Below are positions 22,565-33,826 of a DNA stretch of 64,000 nucleotides, piece by piece. The DNA is from an uncultured Paracoccaceae bacterium (GTDB lineage Bacteria > Pseudomonadota > Alphaproteobacteria > Rhodobacterales > Rhodobacteraceae). The notes beneath the pieces were generated by a model. The model worked only from the letters and a program-made list of their open reading frames with translations, searched no databases and was not told the origin of the DNA. A program made the position numbers and the translations under genes. How positions within the stretch are numbered: the first letter of the stretch is position 1; each line of letters begins with the position of its first letter. Location of the stretch: positions 25,565-89,564 of the forward strand of contig CAJXSR010000014.1 in assembly GCA_913061275.1 (NCBI GenBank). The letters are read 5' to 3'.

Positions 22565-22877
22565 GGGTGGGTCGATTTGGTCTTTCGATGATTCAGTGCG
22601 TGTTGTCCAAAGTCGGCTATGAGCCCTTATTACCAATTCGAATTTTTTAAGATTTGACACAAACGGCCCATAGCTACCGTTCAATGGGTTGGAATTGAAC
22701 CCGTTTGGATTTCGGAAAGCAGACATTAGTCGGATTGCAGTATTTGCGATTTCTTAACGACGGTTATGCGGGCAAAATTTCCTGACTGAACTTTTAAAGG
22801 CCTTATCGGTTTTCATACTGTACGGTACCAAACCCTACATTCCAGTGCATCGTATATTCGCAGTAAGCGTTTCTACT
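22565..22877. other. Gene-free stretch upstream of the accessory region
   Basis: About 310 bases without a convincing reading frame on either strand. Small inverted repeats are visible, such as GTTCAAT ... ATTGAAC around 22679-22700, but none forms a clear terminator. This is the left boundary of the 22.9-31.9 kb accessory region. I see no tRNA gene or direct repeat that would mark an integration site. Confidence 0.4.
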
Positions 22878-22926
22878 TTGATTTAGATCAAGGCGGCACA
22901 GCTAGGTGTCTGGTAAAATCGGCACA
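22878..22926 (+). promoter_or_regulatory. FNR/FnrL box with class II promoter
   Basis: TTGATTTAGATCAA at 22878-22891 matches the FNR consensus TTGAT-N4-ATCAA on all ten defined bases. A -10-like TAAAAT lies at 22914-22919. If transcription starts near 22926, the box centre falls at about -41.5, the classical position for FNR activation. This predicts oxygen-limited induction of the Sel1 gene at 22958 and probably the two genes behind it. Confidence 0.75.
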
Positions 22927-22957
22927 TAGGATTATGAGTTTGGAGGTTGAGGTGTCA

Positions 22958-25237
22958 ATGTCAAACATGGTACTGAAGAGTTTGCAAACCATCGCGCTTG
23001 GGGCGGTTGTCCTGTTCAGTTCACCGGTCTTGGCCCAAAGTTTCCTTGTCGATTACTCTACCCGCACATGGACCGGTGGTTCCATTGACAGCGACAGCGA
23101 CAGCCTACCCGATTATTGTCTCGTGGTCCCGCGCAATCCTAGCAAAAATTATATGATGTTCGCAATGACCACAAATGGGCTGATACTCATGTTGGTCAAT
23201 CCATTGTGGGGTATGGACAACACGGGTAGCAGCATCGAAGTCGATATTGTTATCGAGGGCCTCTGGCAAGGCAAACTGAACGGCCAGATTTCGAATACCC
23301 AAACCGTGACCGTGATTGTCAAAGGCAACCCAGTTTTGGTCGACGCCATCAAATCGGGTAATTATTTGCATGCTTACACATACATCGGGGATTTTTCGAC
23401 ACAACTGTCCGGTACCAGCGCAGCCCTACAAAAGTCCGAACAGTGTTTTGCGCAGGAAATTCGACCCCGGATGACCAGAGCACCGGCTACCCAGGAAACC
23501 ACACAGGATAATGTCGCCACGCCCCACGTGAGCGCGAGTTATCAATCGGGTAAGGCGGCCTATGACAACAAGGATTACATAACGGCAATGGCACTCTGGC
23601 AAGAGGCTGCAATGTCCGGTGATGCAGAGGCGATCAATGGGCTGGGCATCCTGAGCCGGTATGGACGCGGCGTGCCAAAAGACCTGCAACAGGCCCGCAG
23701 TTGGTATCTGATGGCAGCGGAAAAGGGGCTGGATCGTGCGCAGTACAATCTGGGGCGTCTCTATGATAAGGGACTCGGCGTCGGGATCGATTATGCGACT
23801 GCGCTGAAGTGGTATCTCAAAGCAGCAGATCAGGGCTATGACCGGGCACAACTGGTCATCGGTACCAAGTATATTCGCGGCGAGGGGGTTCCCAAAAACG
23901 CTGAGATGGCCCGGAAATGGTATCTGCTGGCTGCACAAAACGGCAACCGTGCTGCTCAGTTCAACCTTGCTACCCTTTTGCGCAAAGGACGCGGCGGGAC
24001 TGCTGATCCGGCCAGCGCTGTGCAATGGTACTACCGCTCAGCCGTGCAGGGGTTTGCGCTGGCTCAGTTGAGACTTGGTGATGCGCTGGCAAGCGGAACT
24101 GGCGTACAGGTTGATCAGACTGAGGCCTACAAATGGTACCTGTTGGCGCAGAAAAACGGGAATGAAAAAGCAGCGACCAAGATCGACGCGTTGGGCCCGC
24201 TATTAAGTCAGGCGGACATCCTGCAAGCTTCCAACATGGCATCGACTTGGCAAAAAGAAAGCGAACCCAAGTCCAGAAACACCGTGGCTGAACCCATCAC
24301 GGCACCTCCAGTAATTGCTTCAGCCCCGACAACCGCTACAACTATCCCCGCACCCGCTGTGACAGCGTCACTGTATCCATCCGCAACCAAGAAACTGCCG
24401 GATGACCTGTTCCCGGACGAACCTAGGGCGCCAGTAAATCCTACTCCTGAACCTGCCGCATCGCTATCCCAGCTGGAAGGATGTTATGACCTGAGTCAGG
24501 CTGATGCAATCTGTCAACAGGCCTGCACCAGCACCGAATTCACCGGCAAGTTGAAGGGGTCTCATCTGGCCTATAAGCAGGGTGCGTCAGCACCTCTTGA
24601 ATACTGCCAGAACGGTTGCGCTCAGGCCAAAGCCGAATTCCCCCAATCAATCGCCTTTGTAAAGGATCTGGCTGGTTCCAAGTTCTATTGCCCGATGCTT
24701 TATGTTGAAACAATCCGCATTGCCCGCAAAAACCGTATCAAGCGCGAGCAGGGCGACAAAAGCGCGTTGAGAGCCTATGAATGGGGTTCCAAGGCCTGGC
24801 GCGAGGCCACGAAAATTGAGGTAAGCGACGACTTTCTGGGCCAATTATCTACAACCCCCTATCCCCCCGCCGTTCAAGCGCTGGTCGATCAGATGCCAAC
24901 CCGGATGGGCAGCTGCTATAGCCTTGAGGGCACCGGTGCGATGGATTATTGCCAAGCAGAATGCATTGAAGATGGCAAAGTGCTCGAAATGTGCAATAGC
25001 GGCTGCGAAAAAGGGGCCGCGTTGTTTCGGGACAGTTTTATCTGGACCAAAGGGCTTACATTTAAGGAGGGGCACGGCAGTATCTGTGACGCAATCCAGT
25101 TTACCGACAAAGATCACGCGCTAGTTCAGGTCAAGAACGAGGCCCGCATGCAAGGGCTATCCCGCGAAGAAACTATTTCATTTGTACATGGTATTCTGAA
25201 TTTCTGGGGGGGCGCGCTTACCCAAGGAAACCGCTAA
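22958..25237 (+). CDS. Exported Sel1-repeat protein with duplicated six-cysteine module
   Basis: About 759 residues. A signal peptide (MSNMVLKSLQTIALGAVVLF, cleavage after VLA) precedes a domain of about 150 residues, shared with the Sel1 protein at 28159, that starts WTGG and ends in a cysteine (QCFAQE). About six Sel1 repeats follow (AAEKGLDRAQYNLGRLYDKG type), then a Pro/Ala/Thr linker and two cysteine modules. Each module has six cysteines and two CxxxC pairs (CQQAC/CQNGC and CQAEC/CNSGC). The track start at 22934 has no ribosome site. The ATG at 22958 has GAGG five bases upstream, and the GTG at 22952 is an alternative. It is probably periplasmic with disulfides and FNR-controlled. Function is unknown. 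Confidence 0.85.
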   Translation: MSNMVLKSLQTIALGAVVLFSSPVLAQSFLVDYSTRTWTGGSIDSDSDSLPDYCLVVPRNPSKNYMMFAMTTNGLILMLVNPLWGMDNTGSSIEVDIVIEGLWQGKLNGQISNTQTVTVIVKGNPVLVDAIKSGNYLHAYTYIGDFSTQLSGTSAALQKSEQCFAQEIRPRMTRAPATQETTQDNVATPHVSASYQSGKAAYDNKDYITAMALWQEAAMSGDAEAINGLGILSRYGRGVPKDLQQARSWYLMAAEKGLDRAQYNLGRLYDKGLGVGIDYATALKWYLKAADQGYDRAQLVIGTKYIRGEGVPKNAEMARKWYLLAAQNGNRAAQFNLATLLRKGRGGTADPASAVQWYYRSAVQGFALAQLRLGDALASGTGVQVDQTEAYKWYLLAQKNGNEKAATKIDALGPLLSQADILQASNMASTWQKESEPKSRNTVAEPITAPPVIASAPTTATTIPAPAVTASLYPSATKKLPDDLFPDEPRAPVNPTPEPAASLSQLEGCYDLSQADAICQQACTSTEFTGKLKGSHLAYKQGASAPLEYCQNGCAQAKAEFPQSIAFVKDLAGSKFYCPMLYVETIRIARKNRIKREQGDKSALRAYEWGSKAWREATKIEVSDDFLGQLSTTPYPPAVQALVDQMPTRMGSCYSLEGTGAMDYCQAECIEDGKVLEMCNSGCEKGAALFRDSFIWTKGLTFKEGHGSICDAIQFTDKDHALVQVKNEARMQGLSREETISFVHGILNFWGGALTQGNR

Positions 25238-25300
25238 AACCACCACTGGTCACTATAATGCTTGTGAACAGCGGCCATCGACTACAAGGAGAAAAAGTAC

Positions 25301-25987
25301 ATGATAAACCGCATAAAACTAGGCTTGCTGATTTTCTTCCTATTCTGTGGACTGGCTTTGCCTGCAATACCGGCACAGGCACAAGAGAGCACTTTTGAGA
25401 ATCGAGGCCAAGCCCAACAATTCCTGAACGAACTGTCCACCTTCAACAAGGCCAGTGCCAGGATCCGACAACCCATTATTCGGCTCGAGTCGCTGATCCG
25501 TAGGGAGTTCTCTCGTTATCAGCAAGCCGTCAACAATTCAGAAACCGCCGAGGAGGCCGGGCAGAACTATCAGGTAGCACTCAGCCAGTTCACCAAGGCG
25601 CGAGCAGATTTCGACCGTGCCATCGCCTTTGCCGCTAAAATTGGGAGCAACTCGAAATTTCCCGAAATTAAAGCCTTGGCAGGACAATATGTGGCGAATC
25701 TTACAAGAAGTCGCAATCGCATCAACAACATCGCTGTTGCCTTCAAATATAACGATATCCGTGCTTTTGACTCAGAGACCCGGGGGCTGATCGATGACTC
25801 GGACGACATGTTTCTATATTGGAACGCCAACGCCCCGCAGTTTCAAACGCAGGTCAACGCCGCAAAGGCCCAGTTCACCGGCATCAAGCCAACCAAGGAT
25901 ATCGGCTGCCCCTATGAAGAAGGCACCTTGCAGCATGCGCTTCATTGCATCATGCCCGAACCCATGTCGAGTGGAACAGGGAATTGA
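25301..25987 (+). CDS. Exported helical protein of unknown function
   Basis: 228 residues with a clear signal peptide (IFFLFCGLALPAIPAQA, then QES). The mature part is mostly charged and helical with heptad-like stretches, for example FNKASARIRQPIIRLESLI and ALSQFTKARADFDRAIAFAA, and ends with a cysteine pair around IGCPYEEGTLQHALHCIMP. I recognise no domain. AAGGAGAAAAAG provides a strong ribosome site, and the gene follows the Sel1 gene by 63 bases and precedes the next exported protein by two bases. The three are probably one transcript and may work together in the periplasm. Confidence 0.75.
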   Translation: MINRIKLGLLIFFLFCGLALPAIPAQAQESTFENRGQAQQFLNELSTFNKASARIRQPIIRLESLIRREFSRYQQAVNNSETAEEAGQNYQVALSQFTKARADFDRAIAFAAKIGSNSKFPEIKALAGQYVANLTRSRNRINNIAVAFKYNDIRAFDSETRGLIDDSDDMFLYWNANAPQFQTQVNAAKAQFTGIKPTKDIGCPYEEGTLQHALHCIMPEPMSSGTGN

Positions 25988-25989
25988 CC

Positions 25990-26892
25990 ATGTCTAACCT
26001 GTCGAAATTCACCGCAGGGGGGCTGGCTCTTGCCCTGTTTGCTCTTGGTACTATAGCGCAGGCGCATATGCTGCGCGACCGCAACTTCGATTTTGCAGCA
26101 CGCTATAACGCCCCACTGGATTTGCTTTCCGACATGTTGAAGGACTTGCCAGATCTGAGTAATGAACCAGAACCACAGGCCAAATCTTCTGTCGTGCCAA
26201 CCGCGCCCGCCACCGTCATCGCGCCGTCGCAGCAAGCAAAATGGATCACCCAAGGTGAGCCCGTTGAAATCCTGAACACGTATAACAAGGCAGGCGTTCA
26301 AAACGGAGCACCGCGTTCGCCGGTCTTTGAACTGTCGCAGCCTACGCTGATCACTCACATCCAAACCTATCACTGGAACAATGCTCGCGGTACTCCCGCA
26401 CCAGGTCAGGTAGGCATTACCAACACAGGCATGTGGCAGGCCACTGGCCGCCCAGGCATGTTAGATACCCCCAATGCCGAATGGGTCATCAAACCCAGCA
26501 TCGTTCTACAACCCGGTGTATATACCGTGATGGATGGCTCGCCGGAAACATGGTCACTCAATCGAGGTTCTGGCGGCATCGGCTTTACAGTTGTCAGGGG
26601 TGTCCCCGTGGTGAAGCAAATGGAAACGACGGCCGGAAATTTCAGCACAGAACGCCAGGCATTGGAACAGCTCGCCAAAATCAAAGATTTCAAGGAGTGG
26701 GCCTTGGCGGTACGCAGGGCCGGCAACACCGTGGTCTACAACGTGACACAAGGCCCCAGCACAAGCTGTTCCGGCGACACATGCAACTGGTGTTTTCGCA
26801 TATCCGAAGACACACCTTCGCACAGAACTTATTTCAAGACCTATTGCATCGATATTTTGACAGGAGGTGTAACAACGCAAGAAGACTATTGA
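25990..26892 (+). CDS. Exported protein of unknown function with beta-rich domain
   Basis: 300 residues from the ATG at 25990; the track start at 25945 lies inside the previous gene. The signal peptide is FTAGGLALALFALGTIAQA. The central domain (about residues 85-200) has the run SPVFELSQPTLITHIQTYHW and the conserved-looking ends QPGVYTVMDGSPETWSLNRG and GIGFTVVRG, suggesting a small beta-sandwich that might bind a ligand. The C-terminus carries five cysteines (SCSGDTCNWCFR ... TYCID). No enzyme motif is visible. It lies two bases after the previous stop, so it is probably co-translated. Confidence 0.7.
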   Translation: MSNLSKFTAGGLALALFALGTIAQAHMLRDRNFDFAARYNAPLDLLSDMLKDLPDLSNEPEPQAKSSVVPTAPATVIAPSQQAKWITQGEPVEILNTYNKAGVQNGAPRSPVFELSQPTLITHIQTYHWNNARGTPAPGQVGITNTGMWQATGRPGMLDTPNAEWVIKPSIVLQPGVYTVMDGSPETWSLNRGSGGIGFTVVRGVPVVKQMETTAGNFSTERQALEQLAKIKDFKEWALAVRRAGNTVVYNVTQGPSTSCSGDTCNWCFRISEDTPSHRTYFKTYCIDILTGGVTTQEDY

Positions 26893-26963
26893 ACTGAAAA
26901 ACTTTAGACTTGATTTTGTGGGCAACTCAGCCTGCGAGGTTGAGAATGGTCTCCGTCCATTCT

Positions 26964-27149
26964 TCAGTCTACAACCACCTCAATCAGGAATGCAGCCTTT
27001 CGAAAATAGATCATTTCAAGCCCAACCGAGCCGTCATTCTTACCGAGTGGCGTCAACTTTGTACCTGTTAACTTCACGACTTTTGCTGTAAACTGACCCA
27101 GTTCAGAATTCGTCTGACAGCACCAAGTCAGCCTCTTAATGTTTATACA
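26964..27149 (-). other. Open frame continuing past the stop of the membrane-protein gene
   Basis: After the TAA of the minus-strand gene at 27150, the same frame stays open for 61 codons to a TGA at 26964-26966. Its last part reads like real protein (VVKLTGTKLTPLGKNDGSVG...), but no good start with a ribosome site is present; a GTG at 27077 is the only plausible one. It may be a gene fragment, a lost C-terminal extension or chance. Confidence 0.2.
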
Positions 27150-27869
27150 TTATTCGAAATCATCGCCGCCGTAATCGTCATAATCATCAACATCGTGATT
27201 GCCTAAATTATGGGCCATCATAACAAACGACAAGGCAGAGCCATCCTCGTTTACCTGCGTGCCTAGTTTATCCACATAATAGGTTCGGCGTGCTTTCAGT
27301 GCGAGAGCAAACATTAACACGCCGATCACACCAAACCCGCCGCACATGGTTATGGCCGCCAGAATATCGTCACCGCCTACACCGCGATTTTGCATCGACA
27401 CCACACCAAAGGCCATAACAACGGCCGCTAGTAAAAAACAAAGAGCCAAGAACATTATGATACCGCCCCTCCAGCCGAATTTGCGCTTTTGATTCACACG
27501 ATTGACCGGGCTTGCGGATTTTACTGGTGGTTTTTCTGGGCGTGCAGACATCGGTGGTGGTGGTGCTATAGATGCCTTTCCAAAGGCCAAATCAGTAGCT
27601 TGTCGAGGCGTCAATTCCTGATCCACCTCGGAACAGTATATCGTGCCACCCTGGCCAATAAAACTGAACATTCCGCTATCACCCTCGGTTTGAACATGCG
27701 GTGGGCAGGGATCGTCTGTATCGGGAGTGTCAAGCGGGGCCAAATGCAACATCGCGCTATTCAATTGATCCTGCTTCAGCATACCGCGTGATTTTGGGTC
27801 AAAATCTCCGTTGGCGGTTAGCCAATCGTCAGAAATGCCCTGAGTCTCAACTTTTATCGTTTTGGCCAT
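27150..27869 (-). CDS. Membrane protein of unknown function
   Basis: 239 residues from the ATG at 27869 (MAKTIKVETQG), preferred over 27884 because GAGG lies nine bases upstream. An acidic N-terminal half has two cysteines (DDPCPPHV, IYCSEVD) and a Pro-rich linker. Two hydrophobic helices follow (GGIIMFLALCFLLAAVVMAFG and ITMCGGFGVIGVLMFALAL), then a short domain and a very acidic tail (DVDDYDDYGGDDFE). I do not recognise the family. It is the only gene of the accessory region on the minus strand and separates the two Sel1 clusters. Confidence 0.65.
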   Translation of the reverse strand: MAKTIKVETQGISDDWLTANGDFDPKSRGMLKQDQLNSAMLHLAPLDTPDTDDPCPPHVQTEGDSGMFSFIGQGGTIYCSEVDQELTPRQATDLAFGKASIAPPPPMSARPEKPPVKSASPVNRVNQKRKFGWRGGIIMFLALCFLLAAVVMAFGVVSMQNRGVGGDDILAAITMCGGFGVIGVLMFALALKARRTYYVDKLGTQVNEDGSALSFVMMAHNLGNHDVDDYDDYGGDDFE

Positions 27870-28158
27870 AATCGGAATCCTCATAGGAAACTAAGTAAAT
27901 GAGTAGAACATCCTGACAAAAGCGCTCAACAAAAAATGATCGCAACTGATCAGAATAACTTTGTTAATACTTGCTATCAGAATAACTATTTTTTGCACAA
28001 ATGCAATAAATTCCCCGCTTGGCCAGAGCGTATGACTAGTCCATTTTTGGCGCTGATTTCAGGGGTGGTACATTCTGTCTCGTATGTGATTGGTGATTTT
28101 TATGGTAATCTTTATGTAGATTCATGATTTATGAACCTATTATTAGGGGGATATTTGT

Positions 28159-29625
28159 ATGAGGTGGTTTATATATAAGTTTTTATTAGTAGCCTGCATT
28201 TGCCCTATTTTTATGTACTTTCCACAGGCGGTCAATGCCCAAAGCACTGTTATTCGCACCCTAAAATCAGGTTTTTGGGAAGGGGCGGTTAAAGCAAATG
28301 CGCAGGGGGAGGCCAGCTATTGTTTTTTACTCGGTCGAAAATCAAACGAAGAATTTACCATCCAACTTTACTGGAACCGTAAGGGGTTTCACGTGTTGAT
28401 TTACAATGAAGACTGGTCTCTGATTGAGGGAGAAGAATTTAAGGGGCGGGTCAGGATTGATAAAAAATTCAATAAAATGATTGATGCAATCGTGTTCGAT
28501 AGTGAGTCGATTGACTATATGTTTGGGTTTAACAATAAAGCTATTGAGGCTTTCCAAAGCGGCAGTCGGATCACGCTCGAAGGCCCAGCAGGCGAACGCA
28601 CGTTTCGCCTTATGGGCACCCGCAAGGCGGTGGATGTGCTGGTTAATTGCGCCGACGAATATTTAGCACCCGATGAAGAACCAGATATGGCCCAAGAGGA
28701 ACCCACCGCACCAGATTATGATGTTGGCGTAAAGGCATATAACGCCGAAGATTATCAGGCTGCCCTGAATGAATTCATCCCGCTTGCAGAACAAGGTAAT
28801 GCCGACGCCCAGAACCGTATGGGTATGATGTATGCCATGGGCAAGGGGGTTGCTGTCGACAATGAAACAGCCTTGATTTGGTTCCGCAAAGCATCTGAAC
28901 AGAGGTTAGCACCGGCACAGACAAATATCGGTATCATGTACGCAAATGGTATGGGTACAGAGAAAAATGATATCGAGGCCGAATATTGGTATAGGAAAGC
29001 TGCCAAACAGGGTAATTCTAGGGCCCAAAACAACCTTGGTGTGATGTATCGTGATGGCACTGTTGTTACACAAAGCAACGCGGAAGCAATACGTTTGTTT
29101 GAATTGGCGGCAGATCAAGGACATGAAAAGGCGCAGAAAAATCTTGAAGATATGCTCGCAGTCGCTGGTGCCGTGTCGCCGGAAAATACCGAAGAAACCG
29201 AGCAAACAGAAACGGCTGTTGTTGTGCCAAATGGTGAAAACTCCGAAAAGCCCACATTTGCTGGTGAGTTGGTAACGCGTGCACTTAATATTCTTGCCGA
29301 GGTAAAAGAGGGCAGTCTGGAGGATGCTTATGCTCTGGTAAGTGATGCGGCCGATTTGGGTGATCGGCGCGGCCAATGGATGGCTGGACGTATGGCATTA
29401 GCTGGTGTTGGGGCCGCAGCAGACCGCACCATCGGACTGGCCCGTATTCTGGCCGCAGCCGAGGCAGGCCACCCAGAAGCGCTGACATATATGGGGCTGC
29501 AATATTTGCAGGATGGTGAAGATGCCACCGATGAAACTGGGCTAGCCTACCTTGAACGTGCCGCAGGCCAAAGTCATGCCGCGGCAATATCGGCGCTGCT
29601 GTTCTTTGAGCAGGAAGCAAACTGA
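28159..29625 (+). CDS. Exported Sel1-repeat protein
   Basis: 488 residues. A signal peptide (FLLVACICPIFMYFPQAVNA, then QST) is followed by a domain of about 150 residues that mirrors the one at 22958: W-G start, YC, an N..W step and a final G-T-x-x-A ... C. Sel1 repeats follow (ALNEFIPLAEQGNADAQNRM, FRKASEQRLAPAQTNIGIMY and others), then a linker and a second repeat block at the C-terminus. AGGGGGATATTTGT precedes the ATG. Its TGA overlaps the ATG of the lipase-like gene by one base. Sel1 repeats usually bind other proteins, so it may scaffold or restrain its coupled partner; this is inference. Confidence 0.85.
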   Translation: MRWFIYKFLLVACICPIFMYFPQAVNAQSTVIRTLKSGFWEGAVKANAQGEASYCFLLGRKSNEEFTIQLYWNRKGFHVLIYNEDWSLIEGEEFKGRVRIDKKFNKMIDAIVFDSESIDYMFGFNNKAIEAFQSGSRITLEGPAGERTFRLMGTRKAVDVLVNCADEYLAPDEEPDMAQEEPTAPDYDVGVKAYNAEDYQAALNEFIPLAEQGNADAQNRMGMMYAMGKGVAVDNETALIWFRKASEQRLAPAQTNIGIMYANGMGTEKNDIEAEYWYRKAAKQGNSRAQNNLGVMYRDGTVVTQSNAEAIRLFELAADQGHEKAQKNLEDMLAVAGAVSPENTEETEQTETAVVVPNGENSEKPTFAGELVTRALNILAEVKEGSLEDAYALVSDAADLGDRRGQWMAGRMALAGVGAAADRTIGLARILAAAEAGHPEALTYMGLQYLQDGEDATDETGLAYLERAAGQSHAAAISALLFFEQEAN

Positions 29626-31457
29626 TGCTGAGGGCTTTCGCATTATTCATTCTTTTTCAGGCTTTCCTACTGGCTTTGCCCGCGACCGCGCCCCAATATA
29701 GCTCATATGCCAAAACCAAACCGGCCCCATATGGTGCCCAGAAATGGCGTGAAAAAAAGGGCGCAATTACCAATGGTGATCGCGAAAGGTTGGCCAAGTT
29801 CACTGCTTATCTTGGCGGGCGCCATAAAGATAAGGACGGCAACAAGATAGAGGTGGTTCACCTGTCGATCAAGGGGGACCCGGAATATCGAAAACATCTG
29901 GAAGACAATGGGTTGGAATTTCTCGATTCCATCGATAATGATACCGGATTGCAAGTCACATTGGTGCGGGACAAGGATTCTGGACGGGTCTTTATCTTGC
30001 CGCGTGGAACCGAAGCCCACTACGAAACAAAAAAGGACGTGACCAAAGCGGATTTTGGTACTTTTTATAAGGGCCAGTTGGAAATCGGCAAAAAACAATA
30101 CGAGTCGGGTAAGAAAAAAATTGCGGAATGGATAAATAAATACAAAGACAAAGGTGGTGTCGAGGTCATCGGCCATTCGTTGGGCGGGGCCATCGGGCAA
30201 CGGATATTTCTGGATAATGCGGAAAGTATTACCTCTGTCACGGTGTTCAATTCACCTGGTCTGGAACTTGAAACCGTCAATAACGCCCTGTCAAAGCCAT
30301 CACAAATGAAAAAAATGATGAACCCGGACGGCAGCCTTAAGCTGAATGTTTTCAATGTCAAAAATGATCTTGTCGGATCGGGTGGCGGCATCATTGTTCC
30401 GGGCAATGTGGTGATGGCCGAAGGCGGGGACTTGTCTAAAGGTGGAAACCCGCTCACAGTCTGGAAGAATGCTCATACCAAACTGATCTTCGGCCCGGAT
30501 GTGAAACGTGAACCTATGGATTATTACCGCTATCAGTCATGGCGTGACCGCAGCGGGTTTCTGGCCGAGAATATGACCAAGGATATAGCCCGGGCTGTGT
30601 TTAATATAACCAACTTCAAAAGCCCGATCAAAAATGAACTGAGCGATCTGCTGGGCCGACTTTCGCAATATCAGAATGCCATTTTGCGCGATATAGGCCG
30701 AGAAAAGCGCGACAAGTGGCGTAAGAGCAAAAAGAAAAAGCGCGGTAAGGATAAAAAGCCGAATCTGGACAAAATCGTAACCGCCGTGATCGACAAAACC
30801 CAGCTGGACGTCGAAAAAGGGCGTAAGCCACCGACAAAGAATAATAAAAAGAAAAAAGTGGTGAAAAAACCGAAGAAAAAAACACCTAAACCGCCAACGC
30901 TGCCAGCGGATGACATGTCAGGCGCATATGCTGGTAAACTGACGGGTACATGGTTCTATAAGGGCGAACTGAATTGGGAAATCCTTGATGGGAAATTTAA
31001 TTTTCGCATTGATGGCACCAAAGTATCTGGGCCTTTCGAAGGCACAGCCAAGGAAAAGGATATGTTTCCCACTATTGGCTCCAATAAAATAGAGTACTTA
31101 GTTTACGTATTCAAAGGTAAAATCAGCGGTAAATACGACCCCAAATCAGGAAGAATATCGACTGATGTTACTGGCAGCTGGAGCGGTCAAGGGGAACGCG
31201 GTATAATTGATGACGGTTATTTTCTGGCTAAACGTGAACCGAATGGGTTTGTTGGTAGTTGGATGGTTGAGGGTATTGGTAATAGGTTCCCAGGTGGTTC
31301 ATATTCTGGCGACTGGCAGGCTGCGATAAAAAATGTGACCGTAACCAAAGAAGTTAAGAAGGAAAGCTCAGAGTTGGTCGGATGGGACGCATATATGTGC
31401 AAAACCTACACAGATGATTGGGATCAAATGGCCCGAATGGGCATTCATTGCGAATAA
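29625..31457 (+). CDS. Exported serine hydrolase / class 3 lipase-like protein
   Basis: 610 residues with a signal peptide (MLRAFALFILFQAFLLALPA). An alpha/beta-hydrolase region contains the nucleophile elbow GHSLGGAIGQ (Ser about 185). Plausible partners are an aspartate in FNVKNDLVG (about 250) and a histidine in WKNAHTKLIF (about 286), spacing that suits class 3 lipases. A strongly basic Lys-rich linker (about 360-420) leads to a C-terminal beta-rich domain of about 170 residues (SGAYAGKLTGTWFYKGELNW ... SGDWQAAI). The substrate is unknown. It is translationally coupled to the Sel1 gene upstream. Confidence 0.8.
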   Translation: MLRAFALFILFQAFLLALPATAPQYSSYAKTKPAPYGAQKWREKKGAITNGDRERLAKFTAYLGGRHKDKDGNKIEVVHLSIKGDPEYRKHLEDNGLEFLDSIDNDTGLQVTLVRDKDSGRVFILPRGTEAHYETKKDVTKADFGTFYKGQLEIGKKQYESGKKKIAEWINKYKDKGGVEVIGHSLGGAIGQRIFLDNAESITSVTVFNSPGLELETVNNALSKPSQMKKMMNPDGSLKLNVFNVKNDLVGSGGGIIVPGNVVMAEGGDLSKGGNPLTVWKNAHTKLIFGPDVKREPMDYYRYQSWRDRSGFLAENMTKDIARAVFNITNFKSPIKNELSDLLGRLSQYQNAILRDIGREKRDKWRKSKKKKRGKDKKPNLDKIVTAVIDKTQLDVEKGRKPPTKNNKKKKVVKKPKKKTPKPPTLPADDMSGAYAGKLTGTWFYKGELNWEILDGKFNFRIDGTKVSGPFEGTAKEKDMFPTIGSNKIEYLVYVFKGKISGKYDPKSGRISTDVTGSWSGQGERGIIDDGYFLAKREPNGFVGSWMVEGIGNRFPGGSYSGDWQAAIKNVTVTKEVKKESSELVGWDAYMCKTYTDDWDQMARMGIHCE

Positions 31458-31469
31458 CCCGAGGAAAAT

Positions 31470-31535
31470 ATGATCATGAAATGCTGTCAGACATGTTTGA
31501 TGGTTTTGTGGCTGATCTCTATTTTTGGTAAATGA
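31470..31535 (+). pseudogene. Clipped small ORF at the accessory-region edge
   Basis: A 21-codon frame (MIMKCCQTCLMVLWLISIFGK) starts five bases after GAGG and reads like the beginning of a signal or membrane segment before stopping inside the IS6 remnant. Its TGA overlaps the ATG of the transposase remnant. It may be a gene truncated when the insertion sequence arrived; a complete tiny membrane peptide cannot be excluded. Confidence 0.35.
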
Positions 31536-31741
31536 TAACAAGTTCTCCCTTCAAAACTTCACCAGAAGTCATCCGCTTCACGGTAATGTATTATGTTAGC
31601 CATCCACTCAGTTTTCGCCAGTTGAAGATATATTGCATGAACGCATCTATCGGGCTTTTGCAAAGCAAAACCCTACGGGCATCGGGTAGTGATATTTGCC
31701 ATGAAACTGTACGATTCCGAGTGAACCGATTTGGCGCATAG
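31532..31741 (+). mobile_element. IS6-family transposase remnant
   Basis: The N-terminal transposase signatures PFKTSPEVIRFTVMYYV and DICHETVRF...NRFG match IS6-family enzymes, where the full segment normally reads without a gap. Here the middle is broken. A frame change after LSFRQ moves the expected EDILHER into another frame, and about 43 bases carrying a hairpin separate it from DICHETV. A stop follows at 31739-31741. The DDE catalytic part is not recognisable downstream to 31985, and no terminal inverted repeats are visible, so the element is dead. It is bordered by the converging pepF gene. Confidence 0.7.
31652..31673. repeat. Short palindromic repeat, copy 2, inside the IS6 remnant
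   Basis: GGGCTTTTGC-AAA-GCAAAACCC forms a hairpin with a single unpaired C. The 12-base core TTGCAAAGCAAA is identical to the core at 18381-18433. It sits where transposase residues should be contiguous, so it was most likely inserted after the insertion sequence had arrived. Confidence 0.45.
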
Positions 31742-31987
31742 TACGCCAAGGATAATCGAAAGAAGAAAGCGTGGCACCATCCAATTTTGCTGTAGCATCT
31801 GGATGTCCAGTCTGGGGATTGCACCATTGAATGGCCGGTTTGTGGAAATCAACTAAACATAAGCCCCTTCATTGAAGGTCCGCTTACCGCCCTTAGTGCC
31901 GAAATGTGGGAGATTTCGAACGGCAACTAAGTCCGCAAAGCTGCCGTTCCTGGACTATTGGTGGTTTACATGGTGGAAATACTTGCC
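31742..31987. other. Non-coding remnant between IS6 fragment and pepF
   Basis: About 245 bases without an intact gene. Short pieces such as a HLD-like and an FVEIN-like translation in different frames may be decayed IS6 transposase sequence, but the match is too thin to count. The 91-codon track ORF at 31872 mostly overlaps the antisense of pepF and is not convincing. Confidence 0.35.
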
Positions 31988-33826
31988 TTACCCCTCCATC
32001 GCTTCCAACTCATCAATCATAGAACTGATCAAACTCAGCCCCTTATCCCAGAACTTTGGATCACTGGCATCCAGACCAAACGGGGCCAGCAGTTCTTTGT
32101 GGTGTTTTGAACCACCTGCACGCAGCATATCGAAATATTTTGCCTGAAAGTCAGGGTCACCTTCTGCATAAACTGCATAAAGCGCATTCACCAGCCCGTC
32201 GCCGAACGCATAGGCGTAAACGTAGAATGGTGAGTGGATGAAGTGCGGGATATAGGCCCAGAAGGTTTCATAGCCGTCCATGAAGTTGAACACGGGGCCA
32301 AGGCTTTCGCCCTGCACCGACATCCATATTTCGTTGATCTGGTCAGGGGTTAATTCACCTGTCGAGCGTGCCGCATGTAGTTTGCATTCAAAGTCGTAAA
32401 ACGCGATTTGGCGCACCACGGTGTTAATCATATCTTCAACTTTGCCTGCAAGCAAACGCTTGCGTGTGGCTTTGTCAGGGGCATTGTCCAGCAATTTGCG
32501 GAAAGTTAGCATTTCGCCAAAAACGCTGGCGGTTTCAGCCAATGTTAGCGGTGTTGAGGATAGCAATTCACCCTGATCTGCCGCTAAAACCTGATGTACA
32601 CCGTGGCCCAGTTCATGCGCTAAAGTCATTACATCCCGTTGTTTTCCAAGGTAATTCAGCATCACATAGGGATGTACATCTGTTACTGTGGGATGGGCAA
32701 AAGCACCCGGTGCCTTGCCGGGCTTTACGCCTGCATCAATCCAGCCTTTGTCAAAGAAAGGTTCAGCGATTTTGGCCATTTCAGGGTCGAAATCTGCATA
32801 AGCTTCCAGCACCATAGAACGCGCATCATCCCATGAAACCGCTGCCGTATCTTCATTAGGCAAGGGCGCATTGCGATCCCACATCTCTAACGTTTCCAAC
32901 CCCATCCATTTTGCCTTTAGCGCATAATAACGGTACGATAATTTTGGATAAGCGGCGACGACTGCATCGCGCAATGCCTCTACCACTTCGGGTTCTACAT
33001 GATTGGCCAAATGGCGGCCCGCTTGCGGGGTTGGCAGACCGCGCCATCGATCTTCTACCTCTTTTTCTTTGGCTAATGTATTGGTGATACGTGCGAACAG
33101 CGATATGTTGCCTTGGAACACTTTAACCAAAGCTTTTGCACCCATTTCGCGTTTCGAGCGATCTGCATCGGATAACAAATTCAGTGTGGCCTCTAGGTTC
33201 ATCTCTTCGCCGTCCACGTCAAAGGTTAGCCCCGCCATGGTTTCATCAAACAGGCGGTTCCATGCGGCTGCACCTACAACAGATTGATCGTGCAGGAATT
33301 TTTCCAACTCATCCGACAACTGATAAGGCTTCATCGCCCGCATCTGATCCAAGATAGGTTTGTATCGTGCCAACCCTGTATTTGACGCAACCATTGCATC
33401 TAATTGGGCATCATCCACACGGTTTAACTCTAGTGAAAAGAACACCATTGGTGTTGACATATCAGTGATTGCACCTTGCATATCAGACATGAACTTGCCG
33501 CGATCTGCATCGGTAGTATTTTGATAATATCTCAGGCCTGCAAATGACATCACACGGCCCATAATGCCTTGGATTTTTTCAAAACGCTGAATGCATTTTA
33601 GCAGGCCAGTGGCATCTAGATCGGCTAGTTTACCTTCATAATCAGCCGCAAAAGACGGGCATTCACTGCTTAACCACTTCATATCGCGTGTTATCTCTGG
33701 CCCATCGGTGCTGGGGTATAGATCATCCAAGTTCCATTCTGGTAAATCCCCGAAATCATTGTTTGCAGCCCCATCGCGCATATCGCGGGGCAAGTCGGGT
33801 TGGATTGTGGTGAATGGCTTGAACAT
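31988..33826 (-). CDS. pepF: Oligoendopeptidase F (M3 family)
   Basis: A 612-residue zinc metallopeptidase that cleaves oligopeptides in the cytoplasm. The metal and catalytic motif is MTLAHELGHGVHQVL, with the downstream glutamate in the segment LAETASVFGEML. N-terminal oligopeptidase F domain segments (LPEWNLDDLYP) and the C-terminal FIHSPFYVYAYAFGDGL are typical. AGGAGC lies eight bases before the ATG. The gene converges on the decayed IS6 region and is probably a single-gene unit. Confidence 0.94.
   Translation of the reverse strand: MFKPFTTIQPDLPRDMRDGAANNDFGDLPEWNLDDLYPSTDGPEITRDMKWLSSECPSFAADYEGKLADLDATGLLKCIQRFEKIQGIMGRVMSFAGLRYYQNTTDADRGKFMSDMQGAITDMSTPMVFFSLELNRVDDAQLDAMVASNTGLARYKPILDQMRAMKPYQLSDELEKFLHDQSVVGAAAWNRLFDETMAGLTFDVDGEEMNLEATLNLLSDADRSKREMGAKALVKVFQGNISLFARITNTLAKEKEVEDRWRGLPTPQAGRHLANHVEPEVVEALRDAVVAAYPKLSYRYYALKAKWMGLETLEMWDRNAPLPNEDTAAVSWDDARSMVLEAYADFDPEMAKIAEPFFDKGWIDAGVKPGKAPGAFAHPTVTDVHPYVMLNYLGKQRDVMTLAHELGHGVHQVLAADQGELLSSTPLTLAETASVFGEMLTFRKLLDNAPDKATRKRLLAGKVEDMINTVVRQIAFYDFECKLHAARSTGELTPDQINEIWMSVQGESLGPVFNFMDGYETFWAYIPHFIHSPFYVYAYAFGDGLVNALYAVYAEGDPDFQAKYFDMLRAGGSKHHKELLAPFGLDASDPKFWDKGLSLISSMIDELEAMEG

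Follow-up and report, generated by a model that had tools for sequence, protein, structure and literature searches.

The operon and its proteins

In the window, that is, the whole 64-kb stretch of DNA that was analysed, which comes from a relative of the marine roseobacters, three genes for exported proteins follow one another on the + strand behind an FNR-type box and a -10 element. The features are as follows:

22878..22891, + strand: FNR-type box TTGATTTAGATCAA, a perfect TTGAT-N4-ATCAA
22914..22919, + strand: -10 element TAAAAT, 29.5 bp from the box centre
22942..22946, + strand: GGAGG, likely ribosome-binding site, read from the sequence
22958..25237, + strand: gene 1, exported Sel1 protein of 759 amino acids (Pfam Sel1, 8.4e-37), with a 47% identical orthologue
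25301..25987, + strand: gene 2, exported helical protein of 228 amino acids with two cysteines outside the signal peptide and a 50% identical orthologue
25990..26892, + strand: gene 3, exported beta-rich protein of 300 amino acids with a TYHWN-type domain, a C-terminal four-cysteine region and a 54% identical orthologue

The Sel1 gene might also start at a GTG (22952) in place of the ATG at 22958. Genes 2 and 3 are separated by 2 bp, the gap after gene 1 measures 63 bp, and no terminator-like site was found on the + strand in the gaps between the operon genes; the three genes are presumably transcribed into a single mRNA.

Protein 1 is composed of an N-terminal domain with two cysteines, Sel1 repeats (residues ~195 to 435), a linker and two six-cysteine modules (residues 509 to 578 and 653 to 710). 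The repeats matched PF08238 in five stretches with 124.7 bits, which is above the Pfam gathering score (cut-off, 30.7). An earlier, sequence-only reading of this DNA had described a Sel1 protein with two six-cysteine modules, and indeed, all 12 module cysteines were located: C509, C519, C523, C550, C554 and C578 in the first module and C653, C665, C669, C679, C683 and C710 in the second. Each module has paired C-x3-C motifs, and the protein contains 14 cysteines in total. The same reading had named two further exported proteins without known function, and this description was borne out as well: the N-termini of all three proteins are signal-peptide-like, as judged by eye, and proteins 2 and 3 matched no family above the cut-off in Pfam or NCBIfam. 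Outside the signal peptides, the numbers of cysteines are even (14, 2 and 4 in proteins 1, 2 and 3), as would fit disulfides formed in the periplasm.

The AlphaFold models were poor (mean pLDDT, 57.0 and 55.5), nothing was drawn from them, and no PDB fold match for the models reached an E value of 0.001. Designed toroid proteins were considered as relatives of the cysteine modules and rejected, since no stretch was significant alone in the profile search and the matches look compositional. PADLOC gave no matches.

Either the C-terminal modules or proteins 2 and 3 served as queries against whole genomes of the genus, family, order, class and phylum, which amounted to 1,975 genome-searches over all queries, some of them overlapping. 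Among the genomes searched, the full three-gene set was found elsewhere only in Shimia litoralis CL-ES2. Protein 2 was found in none of 32 congeners, protein 3 alone gave no match against genome contigs in a first scan, and neither plasmids nor viral contigs yielded an orthologue, the sole plasmid match being to the TYHWN domain. This domain, which is without a Pfam match, also occurs in a large protein of genome G505 and in a small Picosynechococcus plasmid protein. The operon proteins are a new family.

The promoter and its candidate regulator

As had been claimed from the sequence alone, the box is a perfect TTGAT-N4-ATCAA, and TTGATTTAGATCAA at 22878 to 22891 is the sole perfect one in the window, where five other sites have one mismatch. 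The class II distance to the TAAAAT -10 element was confirmed, too: the box centre lies 29.5 bp before the start of the -10 element, which is the class II (-41.5) arrangement, and with a predicted transcription start at ~22926 the box centre is at -41.5. Neither AGGCGG nor AAGGCG, the sequences found at a spacer of 17 or 18 bp, is a -35 hexamer, as expected for an activator-dependent promoter. The anatomy of the region thus supports a class II FNR-type promoter in front of the operon. A minus-strand sigma-70-like site over the Sel1 start was rejected because such sites are no more frequent than expected from shuffled sequences.

If the box were a chance match, a different promoter, independent of oxygen, would drive the operon. 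A genome of this size is indeed expected to contain about 7 perfect boxes by chance, and many of the 28 perfect boxes of the host genome are inside genes. However, only ~0.0009 perfect boxes would be expected by chance in the intergenic region of 393 bp, and fewer still given the exact -10 spacing. Not one of 30 simulated 64-kb sequences contained a box with one mismatch or none and a near-consensus -10 element at exactly 29.5 bp, whereas the combination occurs once in the real window and once in the 19-kb Shimia locus, both times at the operon (22958 to 26892) or its orthologue. Moreover, the position of the box is kept in Shimia, and no other + strand sigma-70-type site was found upstream of the operon. 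A chance match is therefore very improbable.

The host genome encodes an FnrL orthologue (NCBIfam equivalog NF045989, 398.8 bits; cut-off, 300) with the Fe-S cysteine cluster CDDCPIKHRAVCAYC; its gene is located on contig C20, where ccoN and a UspA gene are close by. Against ~7.5 perfect boxes expected by chance from the dinucleotide composition of the window, 28 were found in the genome, and the intergenic ones include boxes before ccoN, three UspA genes, a DksA-like gene, a ccoG/FixG gene, OmpW and pckA. The UspA genes also have -10-like hexamers (TATAGT, TATAAA and TAGGGT) at exactly 29.5 bp. In both Rhodobacter species, ccoN, uspA and dksA2 are direct targets of FnrL (PMC4634722). As the hemN site TTGCGCAGGATCAA of R. 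sphaeroides shows, a half-site may also read TTGC (PMC4634722).

A real Crp/Fnr-family site could have a main user other than FnrL, either a CrpK-like regulator or one of the FixK/Dnr/NnrR type, which responds to NO or a different signal. The genome contains at least four further Crp/Fnr-type regulators, one of which, at locus L034, reads TLHTVSR in its recognition helix, and a perfect box is located between the gene for an FtrB-like Crp/Fnr regulator and a divergent MFS transporter gene (locus L062, start of contig C20). In addition, some sites are common to FnrL and Dnr in Dinoroseobacter shibae (PMC5398030) and to CrpK and FnrL in R. sphaeroides (PMC4263372). On the other hand, FNR is the best fit to the perfect box, and the UspA genes, which are the best companions with the same spacing in the genome, have homologues among the known targets of FnrL. 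We regard a different main user as unlikely, but as the main rival account. FnrL is the likeliest regulator, but the box could also be recognized by relatives of the FixK/Dnr or CrpK type.

We thus favour the reading that the operon is driven by an activator-dependent class II FNR-type promoter and is activated by FnrL under low oxygen, and we consider it likely. The claim that the set belongs to the FnrL regulon stood in part: the promoter anatomy, the FnrL gene and the boxes before homologues of known targets argue for it, and the oxygen switch itself is predicted from these features. The set is probably induced by oxygen limitation.

The Shimia operon and the origin of the region

In Shimia litoralis, the gene order is kept, and proteins 1, 2 and 3 are 47, 50 and 54% identical to those of the window. 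All 14 cysteines of protein 1 have counterparts in Shimia, and the six genes of both operons have intact frames without stops. The neighbours differ: by sequence, the operon in Shimia is preceded by an acyl-CoA synthetase-like gene and followed by a cardiolipin synthase-like gene. At this single orthologous locus, the promoter has the box TTGCTTTGCATCAA, with one mismatch and a distance of exactly 29.5 bp to TATAAT. Outside the box and the -10 element, only 1 to 5 of 14 bases match in register-anchored blocks of the two upstream regions. Relatives with the genes but without the box had been named as evidence against the proposal; in the single relative found, the box is retained with one mismatch. 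Since only one orthologous locus was found, conservation of the box rests on two sequences, the second of which has a mismatch. A point against the FnrL account also comes from this genome: 14 of the 15 perfect-box regions of Shimia contain no homologue of nine host-genome reference genes, among these fnrL, ccoN, uspA, the dksA-like gene, pckA, ompW and ccoG. The FnrL wiring in Shimia litoralis may differ.

In the sibling genome G003, the rpoH cluster is directly followed by the peptidase gene that corresponds to 31988 to 33826 of the window, and ~9.4 kb (window 22565 to 31980) are absent in between. The GC3 of the operon is 0.59 to 0.60, compared to 0.35 to 0.54 for seven surrounding genes. 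The absence of the region in the sibling, together with the higher GC3 of the operon, makes a lateral gain likely; gain by transfer is the simplest reading, and the alternative is loss in the siblings. The operon probably came into the lineage laterally, with its own promoter included. The same observations, and the absence of protein 2 from the 32 congeners, could also be explained if the region were decaying acquired DNA, with a promoter and proteins that are without importance to the host. This is improbable, since all frames are intact in the window and in Shimia and the cysteines persist at 47 to 54% identity, which points to purifying selection on the family. Besides the operon, the ~9.4-kb segment holds a minus-strand gene (27150 to 27884), a second exported Sel1 protein (28159 to 29625) and a lipase/hydrolase-like exported protein (29625 to 31457). 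A tblastn alignment covers both Sel1 proteins with 26%, and their N-terminal domains gave no match in direct BLASTP.

Known systems and a possible function

Protein 1 shares the Sel1 solenoid and the signal-peptide-like N-terminus with the exported Sel1-repeat proteins MerG, ExoR, AlgK and MotX, but in addition it has the cysteine-containing N-terminal domain and the two six-cysteine C-terminal modules. Assignment to any of these families was rejected, as the scores were far below each NCBIfam equivalog cut-off (MerG, 114 of 350 bits; AlgK, 51 of 700; ExoR, 39 of 450; MotX, 30 of 330). The modules may resemble helical hairpin proteins with twin C-x3-C motifs of the small Tim or CHCH type, which we take as a lead only. 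The likeness is that each module carries its C-x3-C motifs in pairs on predicted helices, whereas protein 1 has two extra cysteines per module and a bacterial, exported context; the model is of low confidence, and no sequence or fold match was found in support of the likeness.

We propose that, under oxygen scarcity, dimers of [4Fe-4S] FnrL would bind to TTGAT-N4-ATCAA at -41.5, compensate for the absent -35 contact and bring RNA polymerase to TAAAAT. One mRNA would then give rise to three exported proteins, which may form a disulfide-linked complex that is periplasmic or linked to the surface. In this complex, the Sel1 solenoid would be the scaffold and the disulfide-bonded C-x3-C modules would be the binding domains. 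The function is the weakest step of the explanation. It is only tentatively suggested that the locus is a rare, laterally moving operon with its own FNR-type promoter for an undescribed, disulfide-rich envelope complex made only under oxygen limitation, in which two unfamiliar exported proteins would join the Sel1 scaffold.

With the FnrL regulon of the Rhodobacterales (R. sphaeroides, R. capsulatus and D. shibae), the locus shares the box, the class II spacing, the presence of an FnrL orthologue and, in the host genome, boxed homologues of the known targets ccoN, uspA and dksA. As far as the regulation can be judged from sequence, the operon would join an FnrL-type regulon as a well-founded, if ordinary, new member; the novelty is the cargo and its rarity. 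Most named FnrL targets belong to energy metabolism, haem and photosynthesis, or stress (PMC4634722, PMC5398030, PMC4263372), and the term "Sel1" is absent from the main texts of this regulon literature (PMC5398030, PMC4634722, PMC4263372). If the proposal is true, an FnrL-type regulon reaches the cell envelope by way of an exported, cysteine-rich operon, and a laterally acquired cluster arrives pre-wired to the oxygen sensor of its host. The new protein family gains a clear first test condition.

Perfect boxes of the host genome also precede a P5C-reductase gene, pckA and a DUF6768 gene, and another is found before a fatty acid desaturase gene, where it sits within the preceding gene. The fatty acid desaturase, P5C-reductase, pckA and DUF6768 genes are possible further targets of FnrL.
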